The notes under the pieces are model-generated. The model was not told where the DNA came from and searched no databases. It saw only the letters and a list, made by a program, of their open reading frames with translations. A program made the position numbers and the translations under genes. Of a stretch of 45,211 bases of DNA, positions 3,988-40,189 are shown one piece after another. This DNA comes from Nitrospina sp. (lineage in GTDB: Bacteria > Nitrospinota > Nitrospinia > Nitrospinales > Nitrospinaceae). The stretch's first letter is position 1; each line of letters begins with the position of its first letter. The stretch covers positions 1 to 45,211 of the forward strand of contig JAGQJZ010000012.1 of NCBI GenBank assembly GCA_020430445.1, given 5' to 3'.

Positions 3988-4030
3988 TGGCTGGAGGGTT
4001 TGCTCATTCCCTCCTGATTCTGTTCCTACA

Positions 4031-4076
4031 CTGATTGAAAAATTTTTCGCGTAAAAAAAGCCGCCCCTCCGGCGAG
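4031..4076 (-). repeat. B-type 3'-end repeat, copy 3 (degenerate)
   Basis: Read on the minus strand it starts with the hairpin CGCC-GGAGG-GGCG, then GGCTT, and ends in an A/T-rich tract. It is the third and most distal of three tandem B copies after the GNAT gene, and is shorter than copies 1 and 2. Confidence 0.6.
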
Positions 4077-4090
4077 TAGTCGGGCACAAG

Positions 4091-4150
4091 GACTCTGCTC
4101 AAGAATCCATCGATGAAATTTTGCGGCAAAGGAGCCGCCCTCCGCTAGGA
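4091..4150 (-). repeat. B-type 3'-end repeat, copy 2
   Basis: Aligns over about 60 bp with copy 1: both have GAYTCTGC, then CATCGA, TTTTGCGRCAA and CCCTCCGC on the plus strand. On the minus strand it is immediately preceded by a TAG triplet, like the gene-linked copies, although no gene ends here. It may be a duplicated gene tail. Confidence 0.7.
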
Positions 4151-4184
4151 ATCCTCGCCGGTTGGACGACATAACGACCCTCAC

Positions 4185-4246
4185 GATTCTGCAGTAAAAC
4201 TCATCGACAAAAGTTTTGCGACAAGACGCCAGCCCTCCGCAAGGAG
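4185..4246 (-). repeat. B-type 3'-end repeat, copy 1 (abuts the GNAT stop codon)
   Basis: On the minus strand the element begins at the base after the GNAT stop (TAA at 4247-4249): CTCC, then GCGGAGGGCTGGCGTCTTG, then CGCAAAA, then TCGATGAG and TTTTACTGCAGAATC. The same order is seen after the SpoIIE-type gene and mqnA. Confidence 0.8.
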
Positions 4247-5098
4247 TTAGGACCAGGCCTGGGAGGTGAGGGCGAACACGTGGTCGCGGCGGCCGGGAAG
4301 CTCCGTCGCGTTGAGGAGCATGATGGGCTGTTGGTCGAGTTCCTCGAATCCGGAGGCGAGCAGGGTCTCGATGAAATCCCGCCGCTGGTGCGGCACGTCG
4401 ATGCGTACCGGACCGGCGTGCGACTCCATCAACGCAGCCGCCATCTCCTGCGCGGTGAACAGGTTGAAACCGATCACCGGGCCCAGCAGCAACTGCTCCC
4501 CCTGAAGAACGCCCGCGCCGTAACCGAGCAGCGTCTCCTGCCCCTTTTTCAACGCCACCTGCCGGACACACGCCTGTTCAAGGCGGACCTTCAGCATCCG
4601 GCTGCGATCGTACCCGTGCACCTGGTGATCGAGTCCGATCATCCGCATCCGGTTGGCGTCGTCCAGCGGGACGAGATCGATCTTGTCGGCGAAACCGGAG
4701 CCGGCCACCTGCGTCCCCGGCGGCGCCTGCAGTTTGGAGATGCGTTCCACCGTTTTGAAACCGAAGGGAGTGTAAAACCCTTCCACCTTGCTCCCCGCCA
4801 CCAGCACAAGCGGCCGGTCCGTGGGGCGGTTGCCCGCGATGGCGTGGCGCATGAGGTCGTGCGCCAGCCCCAGCCGCCGGTTCTTTTGGCAGACGATGAG
4901 CATGCCGAGCGCCGCCATGCGCGGGCCGAACTCCGTCACCACCAGAGACGACACCGGCCTGCCCGACTCGTCCCGGTGCCCGTAGGCGGTACCGGCCAGG
5001 AGCAGGGTCCGCCAATCCTCCCGCGTGTGCTCCCAACCGGCGCTTTGCGACAGGGCGAGCAGGGCGGGAATGTCGTTTTCGTTCAAAGTGTGAATCAT
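4247..5098 (-). CDS. GNAT-family N-acetyltransferase with C-terminal Acetyltransf_18-like domain
   Basis: The 283 residues combine an N-terminal GNAT fold (about 1-125; MIHTLNENDIPALLALSQSAGW opening split over strand and helix 1, and an RRLGLAHDLM acetyl-CoA loop region near 74-83) with a C-terminal half like the YitH/Acetyltransf_18 group. The YTPFGF motif near 110 is typical of GNAT proteins of this class. Substrate unknown. The ATG at 5096-5098 has AAGG about 8 nt upstream. Divergent from arsC across 61 bp. Its stop codon directly abuts a B-type repeat. Confidence 0.8.
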   Translation of the reverse strand: MIHTLNENDIPALLALSQSAGWEHTREDWRTLLLAGTAYGHRDESGRPVSSLVVTEFGPRMAALGMLIVCQKNRRLGLAHDLMRHAIAGNRPTDRPLVLVAGSKVEGFYTPFGFKTVERISKLQAPPGTQVAGSGFADKIDLVPLDDANRMRMIGLDHQVHGYDRSRMLKVRLEQACVRQVALKKGQETLLGYGAGVLQGEQLLLGPVIGFNLFTAQEMAAALMESHAGPVRIDVPHQRRDFIETLLASGFEELDQQPIMLLNATELPGRRDHVFALTSQAWS

Positions 5099-5159: not shown

Positions 5160-5591
5160 ATGGCGGACAAACTCAACATTTTATTTCTCTGCACCGGCAA
5201 CTCCTGCCGCAGCCAGATGGCGGAAGGTTTCGCCCGCGCCCTCAAGGGCGGCGTGCTGGAGCCGTATTCGGCGGGGGTCGACCCGAAGGGCATGAATCCC
5301 CTGGCGGTGCGCGCCATGCAGGAAGCGGGGGTGGACATCTCACGCGGCACGTCAAAGCATGTTGACGCGTTAAGGGATATTCACTTCGATATCGTCGTCA
5401 CCGTGTGCGGCCACGCGGATGAAACATGCCCTGCGTTTCCGGGAAAGACACGGGTGGTGCACATCGGCTTCGACGATCCGCCGCAACTGGCGAAGGACGC
5501 GAAAACGGATGACGAGGCGATGGTCCATTACCGCCGCGTGCGCGACGAGATCCGCGCCTGGGTGGCCACGCTGCCGGAGAGCCTGGGCTGA
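5160..5591 (+). CDS. arsC: arsenate reductase, thioredoxin-type (low-molecular-weight phosphatase fold)
   Basis: Cytoplasmic reduction of arsenate to arsenite. The 143 residues carry the LMW-PTPase loop CTGNSCR at 11-17 (C11, R17), the two resolving cysteines C83 and C90 in VCGHADETC, and DPP at 106-108. This three-cysteine arrangement is that of thioredoxin-coupled ArsC rather than plain tyrosine phosphatase, which lacks C83/C90. No arsR or arsB lies nearby, so it may act in general arsenate defence. It is followed by a small membrane-protein gene with a 3-nt gap, probably one transcript. Confidence 0.9.
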   Translation: MADKLNILFLCTGNSCRSQMAEGFARALKGGVLEPYSAGVDPKGMNPLAVRAMQEAGVDISRGTSKHVDALRDIHFDIVVTVCGHADETCPAFPGKTRVVHIGFDDPPQLAKDAKTDDEAMVHYRRVRDEIRAWVATLPESLG

Positions 5592-7693: not shown

Positions 7694-7760
7694 AGATTTT
7701 ACTGTAAAACTGTTTAATGAAACTGTTCGTGCCAAAACGCCGCCCCACCGCAAGGCGGTA
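7694..7760 (-). repeat. B-type repeat, copy 4 (no gene attached)
   Basis: On the minus strand: ACCGCCTTGCGGTGGGGCGG, then CGTTTTGGCACGAA, then GTTTTACAGTAAAATC. It matches the B pattern, and an A copy follows 26 bp on in the same relative orientation as elsewhere, but no minus-strand gene ends at it. Confidence 0.55.
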
Positions 7761-9849: not shown

Positions 9850-10180
9850 AAGTCACCAATAAAAAGGGCGCGTCTTTCCAATCCCCCGGTGAAGGGAAGG
9901 AATCACGCGCCTCGTTTTGTCTTGAGTTGATGTCCAGACGTTTCCCGGAACCGGACAGCCGCATGCGGCTCCAGCACCGGGCCGGTAAACAATTTAAAAA
10001 AGCAGGAAAGCTCGCACCCCCGCACCTCTGCCCTGAATCCTGTTTTGGCGTTGGCTTTGACCAAGCTGTTGACCCTCAGCAGAGATTGAACGGAGTTGTC
10101 CGACCGGTGACGTTGTGTTGACAGAAGAGCGGCCACGCGGCTCGTTATCATTGTCAAAAACCTTGATAATGAACGGGTAA

Positions 10181-16840: not shown

Positions 16841-16896
16841 GATTCTGCAAAATAACCCGCCGAAGAAACTTTTTGCGCCTAAGAAGCTGCGGTCCG
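16841..16896 (-). repeat. B-type 3'-end repeat, copy 5 (abuts the SpoIIE-type stop codon)
   Basis: Minus strand, starting at the base after the TAG at 16897-16899: CGGACCGCAGCTTCTTAGGC, GCAAAAAGTTTCTTCG, then GGGTTATTTTGCAGAATC. It keeps the order of the B elements at mqnA and the GNAT gene. Confidence 0.7.
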
Positions 16897-18288
16897 CTAG
16901 GACCGGACCTGGAAGGAGACGGTGGTTTTATCGTCGAACTGCGGCGCGTCGGTTGAGAATTTGTTGAGGGCGATTTCCAGTTGTTGCAGCAGGACCGCCG
17001 GTTCGCCTTTTTCCTTTTCCAGGAAATCCACCAGCCGCCGCTGGCCGAACAATTCCCCTTCCATGCTCTTGGTTTCGATCACCCCGTCGGAGAGCAGCAC
17101 CACCCGGTCGCCCGGCTGGAGTTTGATTTCCTCCTGCTGGTAGGTGGCGTGCGGCAACATGCCGAGCGGCGTGCCTGTGGCCTGGGCCACCTCCTCCACC
17201 TTGCCGCAGTTGTGCTGCAGGAGCATCGCCAGGTGCCCCGCGTTGGCCACCTGTATGGTCTTGGTTTTCATGTTGAGGACCATGTAGATGACCGTGGTGA
17301 ACATGCCGCGGTAGGAACGCTCGAAGAAAATATTGTTCACCTCGCGCAATACGTCCTTCGGCTCCGAATTTTTGGTCGAGACATAGCGGAAGTCGCTCAT
17401 CAGCCGCGCCATCTGCAGGGCCGCCGGCACGCCCTTGCCCGACACATCCCCCAGCAGGATGCCGAGCGTCGACGGGCTCAGCTTGATGAAATCGAAGTAG
17501 TCGCCGCCGACATTCTTCGCCGCGATGGAACTGGCGGAGAACCAGAAATCCGGATGTTCCGGAAAATTCTGCGGCAGAAAGCTTTCCTGCACCGACTGGG
17601 CGAACTCCATGTCCTTTTCCAACCGCTGCTTTTCCATGAGGACGTGGTGCATGCGCGCGTTCTGGATGGCCAGCGCCGCGCTGTCGCACACCAGTTTGAA
17701 CAGCGCCAGGTCCTTGCGCGAGAACACCTTGCCCTTGCCGCCACGGTGGATGACCTGGCACACGCCGATGACCTTGTCCCTCGCCTTGAGCGGCGCGCAG
17801 AGGATGGAACCGGTTTTGAATCCCGTTTTCTTGTCGTAGGAGGGGTCGAACTTCTTGCTCTTGTAGGCGTCCTTGATGACCATGGCGCGGCCGGTTTTCG
17901 CCACCGTTCCGGCGATGCCCTGCCCCAGCTTGATGCGTGTCAGTCCCTTGATCGCCTCGCCGACACGGCTCAGCGCCACCTGGAATACCAGATCGCCGTG
18001 TTCCTCGTCGATCAACAGCAGGCTGGAAGCGTCCGCCTTCATCACCTTCTTGGCGATGTTCATGATCGTGTCGAGCAGGATGGTCTGGTTCAGTTCCGAA
18101 TTGAGCAGGCTGGTGATGCGGTAGCAGGTCTCGAGCTGGTGGATGCGCTCCTCATACTCGAGAAGCCGTTCTTCCGAGGGAAGGGTTTGAATCGTTTTGC
18201 TTTTGGCCTTCTTGGTCTGCCCCATGGAATCCGCCGGAACCACCCCGGCGCCCTGAACAAATTTTGGGTTGGTGATGACCGTAAACAT
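16897..18288 (-). CDS. GAF-domain SpoIIE/RsbU-type serine phosphatase
   Basis: PP2C-like phosphatase of the RsbU/SpoIIE class, 463 residues. A short coiled stretch (38-56) is followed by a GAF sensor domain (about 57-215), a linker helix (216-245) and the phosphatase domain (about 250-463) with GGDYFD at 261-266, GDVSGKG at 280-286, NAGH at 349-352, LSDGVIE at 399-405 and FDDKT at 451-455. All metal ligands expected are present. It should dephosphorylate a STAS-type antagonist in a partner-switch; the STAS gene at 35446 is the only such protein in the window. A second start, Met22, is possible. It is divergent from the DUF721/TPR gene over 36 bp. Confidence 0.9.
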   Translation of the reverse strand: MFTVITNPKFVQGAGVVPADSMGQTKKAKSKTIQTLPSEERLLEYEERIHQLETCYRITSLLNSELNQTILLDTIMNIAKKVMKADASSLLLIDEEHGDLVFQVALSRVGEAIKGLTRIKLGQGIAGTVAKTGRAMVIKDAYKSKKFDPSYDKKTGFKTGSILCAPLKARDKVIGVCQVIHRGGKGKVFSRKDLALFKLVCDSAALAIQNARMHHVLMEKQRLEKDMEFAQSVQESFLPQNFPEHPDFWFSASSIAAKNVGGDYFDFIKLSPSTLGILLGDVSGKGVPAALQMARLMSDFRYVSTKNSEPKDVLREVNNIFFERSYRGMFTTVIYMVLNMKTKTIQVANAGHLAMLLQHNCGKVEEVAQATGTPLGMLPHATYQQEEIKLQPGDRVVLLSDGVIETKSMEGELFGQRRLVDFLEKEKGEPAVLLQQLEIALNKFSTDAPQFDDKTTVSFQVRS

Positions 18289-27280: not shown

Positions 27281-27314
27281 AACCGGGATGGGGCACCCCC
27301 ATCCCGGTTTTTTT
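27281..27314 (+). terminator. rho-independent terminator after hppA
   Basis: AACCGGGATGGG at 27281-27292 pairs with CCCATCCCGGTT at 27298-27309 around a 5-nt loop, followed by a T run to 27314. It also overlaps the first open codons upstream of mqnA, which rules out an earlier mqnA start. Confidence 0.92.
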
Positions 27315-27338
27315 GTTTCCGCATCAAGTGAAAACACC

Positions 27339-28151
27339 ATGACCACGACCCACCTGCGAATGGGAATCCACGATTTCCTGAACGCCCAGCCTCTGCTCCT
27401 TCCCCTGCAGATGGACGCCCAACGCCTGAATCTCGACCTGGTGATCCGCAATCCGGCGGACCTCGCAGTCATGCTCAAGGCGGGCGAGCTCGATCTCGCC
27501 ATGATCCCGAGCATCGAATACCTGAAGGACGCCGACGCCTACCGCCTCATGCCCGGTATCTGCATCGCCTCGCACGGACCGGTGGGGAGCGTCCTGCTGG
27601 TCAGCAAACTGCCGCTGGACCAGGTGCGCACACTGGCGGTCGACAACCGCTCGCGCACGTCAACGGCGCTGCTCACCATCCTGTTCAACCGCCGGCTGGC
27701 GCCGTTCGCGTTGAAGGGTCCGGCGGACCCGGACCCGGAAACCATGCTCAGGCAGAACGACGCGGCGATGATCATCGGCGACCAGGCCTTCCTCATAGAA
27801 GAGAACCACCCGGACCTGACGGTATACGACCTCAGTCAGGAGTGGTTCCGCCTCACGGGAAAATCGTTCGTCCACGCGGTGGTGGCGGTACGGCCGGAGG
27901 TGCGCCCGCCGCAGGAGCTGATCCAGTTCCTCAAGGGATTGCCGGAAATGGGAAGGGCCATGCTCGACACCATCGTCATTCTGCCCCGCGTACGCGAATC
28001 GGGCCTCTCCCCGGAAGGCTGCCGCACCTACCTGACGGAACGCATCCACTACACCCTCGAAGAAAAAGCACTGGACGGGCTCATGCACTTCCGCGAAGCC
28101 TGCTTCAAAACCCGCCTGCTCGACCATCAGCACCCCATCGAATTCACCTAA
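27339..28151 (+). CDS. mqnA: chorismate dehydratase MqnA (futalosine menaquinone pathway)
   Basis: First step of the futalosine route to menaquinone: chorismate to 3-enolpyruvyl-benzoate. The 270 residues have the periplasmic-binding-like fold of the family: GIHDFLNAQPL at about 9-19 (family SYLNAKPL), the loop LDLAMIPSIEYL at about 51-62, VDNRSRTSTALL at about 101-112, and a late MIIGDQAFL. The frame runs 17 codons further up, but into the hppA terminator. The other mqn genes are not in this window. The stop is directly followed by a B-type repeat. Confidence 0.85.
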   Translation: MTTTHLRMGIHDFLNAQPLLLPLQMDAQRLNLDLVIRNPADLAVMLKAGELDLAMIPSIEYLKDADAYRLMPGICIASHGPVGSVLLVSKLPLDQVRTLAVDNRSRTSTALLTILFNRRLAPFALKGPADPDPETMLRQNDAAMIIGDQAFLIEENHPDLTVYDLSQEWFRLTGKSFVHAVVAVRPEVRPPQELIQFLKGLPEMGRAMLDTIVILPRVRESGLSPEGCRTYLTERIHYTLEEKALDGLMHFREACFKTRLLDHQHPIEFT

Positions 28152-28214
28152 TCTTCGCCGGAGGGGCGGCTTCTTGACACAAAAGCTGTCTTCGATGGGT
28201 TTTACCGCAGAATC
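28152..28214 (+). repeat. B-type 3'-end repeat, copy 7 (abuts the mqnA stop codon)
   Basis: Starts at the base after TAA (28149-28151): TCTTCGCCGGAGGGGCGGC, TTCTTG, ACACAAAAGC, TCTTCGATGGG, TTTTACCGCAGAATC. The best-preserved copy; its 5' hairpin is CGCC-GGAGG-GGCG. Confidence 0.8.
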
Positions 28215-28242
28215 AAATCAAAAAACCGGGACACACAAAACG

Positions 28243-28302
28243 TGTCGTTCTGAGGCTTCCGCCAGAGTCTGCCCTGAGTTTGTCGAAGCAAAGTCTCGCC
28301 TT
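28243..28302 (-). repeat. A-type dispersed repeat, copy 8
   Basis: Plus strand reads TGTCGTTCTGAGG, a centre with CTGAGTTTGTCGAAGC, and AAGTCTCGCCTT. It is orientated relative to the B copy before it as at the other loci, 28 bp after that B copy. Confidence 0.55.
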
Positions 28303-34409: not shown

Positions 34410-34467
34410 CAGCAAAATTTTTTGGGGAAATTTCAGGTGGGAAGAAGCCGCCCGTCCGGCGAGACCC
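34410..34467 (-). repeat. B-type 3'-end repeat, copy 8 (abuts the small lipoprotein stop codon)
   Basis: Minus strand, starting after TAG (34468-34470): GGGTCTCGCCGGACGGGCGG, CTTCTTCCC, then an A/T-rich end with AAAATTTTGCTG. The 5' hairpin is CGCC-GGACG-GGCG, a loop variant of copy 7. Confidence 0.7.
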
Positions 34468-34668
34468 CTAACGGTCGCTGGCGTCGGCCAAGCCTTCTTC
34501 CAACGCCTTGGCCGCGTTTTTCACCTTTTGCTCGGCTTCTTTCGCCTTGTTGACCAGTTCCTGCGGAATCTTGCCGCGTTCCTCGGCTTCCTTTTTTTGT
34601 TCCTCGCACGCCGTGGCCAGCAGGGCAAAAACCGCAAGCGCCGTCGCCAACATCCATTTACTTTTCAT
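34468..34668 (-). CDS. small lipoprotein
   Basis: A 66-residue precursor: signal MKSKWMLATALAVFALLATAC with lipobox ATAC (Cys21), then about 45 residues of charged, Lys/Glu/Ala-rich amphipathic helix (KEAEQKVKNAAKALEEGLAD). This resembles small Lpp/entericidin-like or stress-induced helical lipoproteins, but no named family is certain. AAGGAG 8 nt before the ATG is a good ribosome site. Its stop is followed at once by a B-type repeat. Confidence 0.82.
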   Translation of the reverse strand: MKSKWMLATALAVFALLATACEEQKKEAEERGKIPQELVNKAKEAEQKVKNAAKALEEGLADASDR

Positions 34669-39767: not shown

Positions 39768-39841
<74 letters not shown>

Positions 39842-40189
39842 CTATTAATCAAGAGTTTATAGATTTCACGCGGTACCTTTTTCATCGACTATGATAAAAT
39901 TATGCTAATCAAGAACCGACACGCCTTACTTTAACCTTTCTGGATTCAAATGCGCATACCGTTGATCGGTATGGAGCCGCTCCTTGAGATGGAACAGAAT
40001 CAGGCAGCATGAAGGACGGCTTGGTGGATTCGATGGAAAACGCTACGCGTTTCCCACAACTCCACAGGCCCAGTAACGGCAACATGCAGACTCAATGCGA
40101 GGACTTCCCAAATACCAAAGTGCGAAACTTTCTTGACACTACCGACTTTGTACTTACTGCTTGAATTTAAATGTCTGAAATACTCGGCC
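39842..40189. other. A/T-rich junction between tRNA-Arg and the RTX gene
   Basis: A 348-bp stretch without an intact gene. It holds the possible integrase remnant at 39926-40042. No repeat of the tRNA 3' end was found within this window, so the far attachment site, if any, lies beyond it. Confidence 0.6.
39926..40042 (-). pseudogene. possible C-terminal remnant of a tyrosine integrase
   Basis: A 38-codon open stretch on the minus strand ends with LKERLHTDQRYAHLNPERLK and a stop. QRYAHLNPERL matches the segment with the catalytic Tyr of phage-type tyrosine recombinases. Upstream the frame is closed by a TAG at 40043-40045, and no R-H-R box is visible. Its place next to a tRNA gene fits a decayed island integrase. 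The match is short, so chance cannot be excluded. Confidence 0.4.

Follow-up and report, generated by a model that had tools for sequence, protein, structure and literature searches.

Mycobacterial genomes carry MIRU, intercistronic repeats that form tandem arrays and whose ends overlap the stop codons of neighbouring genes. For Escherichia coli, REPs that lie no more than 15 nt from a stop codon are reported, and a role as a barrier is proposed for them (PMC12306157). REPs are divided into GTAG and CGTC families, of which the GTAG REPs can supply TAG stops (PMC3733652). The RU (ERIC-type) MITEs of enterobacteria are ~100 bp long, intergenic and bounded by inverted-repeat ends (PMC2759123). 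Here we describe a repeat, element B, in a 45,211-nt stretch of Nitrospinaceae DNA (the window) and in the 3.32-Mb MAG assembly of which it is contig 44 (G000; 249 contigs, 86% complete). B is multicopy, tandem and intergenic, with its tip in sense orientation and flush at the ends of protein genes, tRNAs and tmRNA; in relatives, RNase P RNA is used as well. With a probability of about 0.62, we interpret B as a species-specific branch of Nitrospinaceae REP/MITE-like hairpin-tipped repeats, whose tip, flush with gene 3' ends, would act as a 3'-boundary structure.

Upon scanning the window with a profile HMM, we observe seven clear B copies, at 4239, 4145, 4071, 7750, 16897 and 34458 on the minus strand and at 28159 on the plus strand. 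The initial annotation had placed B behind four genes in sense orientation, and sequence reading together with ORF calls confirms all four. It had also described these hosts as functionally unrelated, which Pfam supports for three of them (GNAT, PF18014; SpoIIE, PF07228; MqnA, PF02621), the protein of the fourth, a 61-aa lipoprotein-like ORF (34468..34653, minus strand, from an ORF call), being without a match in a Pfam search. The register that it had proposed, with B beginning at the base after the stop codon, is exact for the GNAT gene (offset 0) and looser for mqnA (+1, with a weak stem), the lipoprotein (+2) and the SpoIIE-type gene (-7), the last because the TAG stop falls inside the hairpin loop. 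The menaquinone biosynthesis gene mqnA (27288..28151, plus strand; assigned by PF02621 and orthologues) ends in TAA at 28149-28151 and is followed by B at 28152..28214 (plus strand, delimited from the sequence and its alignment with other copies; HMM 28159-28214, 53 bits), in which the weak tip hairpin leads into GGCTTCTTG...TTTTACCGCAGAATC. Its C-terminus, HPIEF(T/V/I) before the stop, is kept in relatives, with the same end residue in G000 and in two further species of the genus, G001 and G002; at 70% identity, the G000 mqnA resembles its counterpart in Nitrospinaceae bacterium OFTM7, and G000 is accordingly treated as a Nitrospinaceae MAG. Of the interval first assigned to the element here, 28149-28302, the stop and B account for the part up to 28214, and the remainder is part of a different, GTCATTCTGAG-type repeat. 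This second interspersed repeat, of the GTCATTCTGAG...GAAGAATCTCGCC type, occurs at 28215-28302 and at many other loci, lies within ~100 nt after 19 of 69 B copies in G000, and is also present in G001 and G002.

The GNAT acetyltransferase gene (4247..5098, minus strand, PF18014) is followed by three tandem copies on the same strand, at 4185..4246 (42.9 bits), 4091..4152 (30.5 bits) and 4016..4078 (24.6 bits), the first showing a perfect tip hairpin, CTCC-TTGC-GGAG, directly at the stop TAA (4247-4249) and the third continuing into a GTCATTCTGAG-type repeat. Behind the GAF-SpoIIE phosphatase gene (16897..18288, minus strand; PF07228, PF01590), B occupies 16841..16903 (minus strand, 36.1 bits, offset -7), so that the stop TAG at 16897-16899 sits in the loop of GTCC-TAGC-GGAC. 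The copy behind the lipoprotein-like ORF, whose stop TAG lies at 34468-34470, spans 34410..34467 (minus strand, 28.5 bits) and is degenerate at its 3' end, and the remaining copy (7695..7757, minus strand, 37.0 bits) lies away from any recognised gene end. Rfam at gathering score yielded no B match in the window or at seven further B loci, the window giving two tRNAs only.

Next, we examined B across G000 with a profile HMM grown from seven seeds and run on an 880-kb sample, 27% of this fragmented MAG; since part of the sampled contigs were chosen as known B carriers, copy density is a biased estimate, with the register unaffected. We found 69 copies, which group into 42 clusters and frequently form tandems of 2-4, with uniform orientation in 18 of 19 multi-copy clusters and no intragenic copies in the sample, and a covariance model gives at least 146 copies genome-wide (150 candidates scored). 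The element is ~60 nt and up to ~95 nt long, and because its cores average 64% identity we do not consider it a very recent burst. On contig 236 (9190-10538), approximately nine copies share one strand, six of them at a period of ~62 nt. Behind a flagellin gene at locus L018 (contig 48, ~5357-5478) stand two identical B units of 59 nt each and the beginning of a third, and the G002 orthologue of this gene carries a related hairpin directly at the TAG stop.

B opens at its 5' tip with a hairpin of 4-6 bp whose loop is of the TTGC/TCGCC/TAGC type, chiefly TTGC, TCGCC, TAGC or TCGGC; GGC(Y)AAC or a variant of it comes next. When the stems are read in a fixed register, all four pairs are Watson-Crick in 42/69 copies versus 7.9 expected (maximum 17 in 2000 trials), and all four are standard pairs in 49/69 versus 16.8 expected (maximum 27 in 2000 trials), the expectation being obtained by swapping the 3' sides among copies. 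At least 14 stem types occur, for example CTCC/GGAG, CCGC/GCGG, GTCC/GGAC, CACC/GGTG, CCAC/GTGG and CCAT/ATGG; the letters of the tip stem vary freely while complementarity is kept. A consensus RNA fold of the plain B alignment gave zero pairs because 4- and 5-nt loops shift the stems out of register, which the fixed-register test resolved. Beyond the tip, the folding energy resembles that of shuffled sequence (mean z ~0). Full-length copies finish in a mirror image of the tip, and this right end is seen in ~11/69 G000 copies, 23-26 nt after the core.

The placement of B was examined against our own hexamer-based ORF calls and ARAGORN tRNAs, with random placement in intergenic space only (2000 trials) as the null model, several B relations being judged by eye. 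The initial annotation had staked its reading on an excess at stop codons with a strand preference, and both were found: in the G000 sample, 25 of the 43 leading copies lie no more than 25 nt from the 3' end of a gene on the same strand, where random placement gives a mean of 2.1 and a maximum of 9, the preference is complete, with no leading copy among the 43 beside an opposite-strand start, and the pattern is repeated in G002. Counted from the base that follows the stop codon or RNA end, the first stem base lies between -10 and +4 nt, with 0 a frequent value, and ~40% of leading copies are away from any recognised gene end. Judged by Pfam, the B-tailed protein genes are varied, including GNAT, SpoIIE, MqnA, pentapeptide, fumarase, RecR and flagellin. 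Their stops are TAG in 10, TAA in 6 and TGA in 2 of 18 cases, with stops elsewhere being TGA-rich; TAG is thus enriched (10/18 versus 118/747), as are stops of the form CTAG or CTAA, counting the last base of the previous codon (12/18 versus 78/747). This last excess may mean that the element prefers such targets or that it brings the stop with it. One initial suggestion was an insertion that targets stop codons or provides them, and what stands of it is an interspersed repeat at gene ends, with the stop inside the hairpin loop in 3/18 B-tailed protein genes and CTAG/CTAA enriched. What falls away is the stop codon as the common target: it is not the common denominator of B sites, because the ends of tRNA, tmRNA and RNase P RNA serve as well, and RNA genes with B carry no CTAG/CTAA-type motif. 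RelE-type cleavage at UAG was considered as a source of RNA ends because of the TAG enrichment and was rejected, as RelE also cleaves UGA efficiently (PMC2807027), yet TGA is depleted at B-tailed genes. A generic count of a hairpin followed by GGC behind all G000 stops (19 versus 14 expected) is too unspecific against background.

B or its tip lies directly behind 12 of 35 tRNA entries, Arg-ccg and Met being counted by eye, versus 18 of 735 CDS (p 5e-10), which argues against translation as its sole context. The tRNAs concerned are Ser (four isoacceptors), Arg-tcg, Arg-ccg, Leu-cag, Leu-caa, Val-tac, Met and two tRNA 3' halves. Additionally, the G000 tmRNA has B flush with its 3' end, and a related hairpin takes this position on tmRNA in G009 and on RNase P RNA in both G006 and G008; at these two RNA genes G001 and G002 have empty sites, and SRP RNA carries no element in 6/6 genomes examined. 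The window's own tRNA-Arg(tct) (39768-39842) is intact and without B. Contig 245 (L091, 5097-5140) has a 44-nt 3' half identical to that of this tRNA, followed by B, and in G001 this tRNA is intact with a hairpin attached; an island appears to have integrated in the tRNA and displaced its original 3' flank. At L089 (~9880-9926), tRNA-Leu(tag) is succeeded by the 3' half of another tRNA with a CCA end and then by B, an arrangement that may be what is left of a second island attachment. Among the G000, G001 and G002 tRNAs compared, an encoded CCA accompanies the element in Ser-gga, Leu-taa and Arg-cct, and the element-free orthologues have no CCA. Stems that begin with CCA were seen at tRNA and tmRNA sites, with none directly behind stop codons.

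When extending the comparison to relatives, we find the G000 core absent from 11 other genomes of the family, save for one marginal match, and the exact B pattern has zero matches among GTDB contigs, a set in which G000 itself is possibly not included. Families with a hairpin followed by GGC(Y)AAC in the same register are observed in G001, G002 and G006-G009. In G002, sampled over 931 kb and thereby more fully than G001, the family has 59 copies, of which the leading ones are flush in 18/48 cases versus 2.4 expected, with none of the 48 at an opposite-strand start. Its full-length copies, common by inspection, have the form hairpin-GGCTAACGG ... CCGTTGGCC-hairpin and are thus hairpin-tipped inverted repeats. 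In a small comparison built on our own ORF calls, a hairpin at the orthologous stop was found under strict criteria for 4/12 B-tailed genes versus 10/156 controls (Fisher p 0.01), and two more were recognised by eye in G002, at GNAT (with a mismatched stem) and at L038_5154, where the frame crosses the hairpin. To judge from these sequences, the positions of B are probably in part old, their stems and cores having turned over, and the hairpins at orthologous ends may stem from shared descent or from repeated insertion at the same places. A host-derived 5' arm (snap-back) was rejected, since the arm is missing from element-free orthologous ends.

If B is such a hairpin-tipped repeat, the tip would be co-transcribed with the gene, would be the structure that opens the 3' UTR or the tRNA or RNA trailer and, by analogy with E. 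coli REPs, could serve at this 3' boundary as a barrier against ribosomes or exonucleases; the exact placement would arise from the mode of insertion, from selection holding the hairpin there, or from both. Insertion that recognises mature RNA 3' ends and not DNA sequence, for example by reverse transcription and template switching followed by recombination, is a speculative and rather unlikely route, which, if true, would explain the single register at stop codons, tRNA discriminator/CCA ends, tmRNA and RNase P RNA; it fits the encoded CCA that comes with the element (Ser-gga, Leu-taa, Arg-cct in G001), none being present in the element-free orthologue. B might also be mainly a selected cis-acting 3'-end RNA element, a processing or exonuclease-stop signal that is not mobile and is retained as useful. 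The turnover of stems under constant pairing, the hairpins at orthologous stops of proteins only 60-85% identical and the identical site on tRNA, tmRNA and RNase P RNA speak for such a signal, but the majority of genes and tRNAs lack B, tmRNA and RNase P RNA carry the hairpin in some species only, tandem copies and copies distant from genes occur, and the core is uniform within species and differs among them, so that we hold this to be an unlikely alternative.

A selfish repeat that inserts anywhere in intergenic space, its excess at gene ends reflecting tolerance, would be in keeping with the interspersed and tandem copies, the species-specific core and the zero intragenic copies in the sample. 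It predicts intergenic scatter without strand preference, whereas 25/43 leading copies lie within 25 nt versus 2.1, with stems near 0 and 0 copies beside opposite-strand starts; the random-placement control disfavours this reading, and we regard it as quite improbable. The gene-end location, as well as the hairpin and T-run that most B-less tRNAs possess, would suit a family of intrinsic transcription terminators, and terminator-like was indeed one of the initial suggestions. Yet the stem is short (4-5 bp), the tip is followed by GGC with no T-run (U-tract), the remainder has no folding signal, and terminators in the gap (<=300 nt) are neither raised nor lowered after B-tailed genes (4/18 versus 61/215 others), which makes this origin very improbable. 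An attC-like recombination site, the gene-cassette tail of the initial annotation, could account for a stop codon preceding an imperfect palindrome. The attC core RYYYAAC, however, occurs in 1/69 copies and GTTRRRY in 3/69, and the hosts are ordinary chromosomal genes and not cassettes, lying on both strands and including tRNA, tmRNA and genes of core metabolism; we give this explanation hardly any credence.

The interpretation of B as a hairpin-tipped, REP/MITE-like repeat has implications beyond this locus. In the open-access literature we found no such repeats described in this phylum, and as far as we found, a B-like repeat that precisely marks where protein genes, tRNA, tmRNA and RNase P RNA end is undescribed, repeats near stop codons as such being known. 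B offers a natural system for whether REP-like hairpins act at the RNA 3' end or are merely tolerated, and for how non-coding repeats find gene ends. It also matters for annotation, as a stop within the hairpin (CTCC-TAGC-GGAG) sets the C-terminus of some proteins, and in a sister species the reading frame may cross the element.

Overall, B combines properties of several described repeats. From MIRU it differs in sequence and host, and B also occurs at RNA genes. With the RU (ERIC-type) MITEs it shares a length of ~100 bp and an intergenic location, and inverted-repeat ends may be a further common trait, but both ends are present in only a minority of B copies, and the copies are flush with gene 3' ends; inspection of the B flanks gave no consistent direct repeat that would mark a target duplication. 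Compared with REPs, the B tip has no GTAG tag (0/69), GACG, the complement of CGTC, stands beside the hairpin in 10/69 copies, and no Y1/RAYT-type transposase was found in G000 (86% complete) or G002, where Y1_Tnp (PF01797) is not detected, G001 and G009 having one each. Furthermore, the register of B is much tighter (-10 to +4 nt) and extends to tRNA, tmRNA and RNase P RNA, which does not feature in the portions of the REP descriptions compared. Since tag and RAYT transposase were not found, B is REP-like and stands outside the GTAG/RAYT class. In the general sense of a multicopy intergenic palindrome with a covarying stem, B is a REP, and it resembles REP and BIME sequences as a small intergenic palindrome in many copies, with compensatory stem variation and some copies shortly after stops, REPs being the closest known kind to B.
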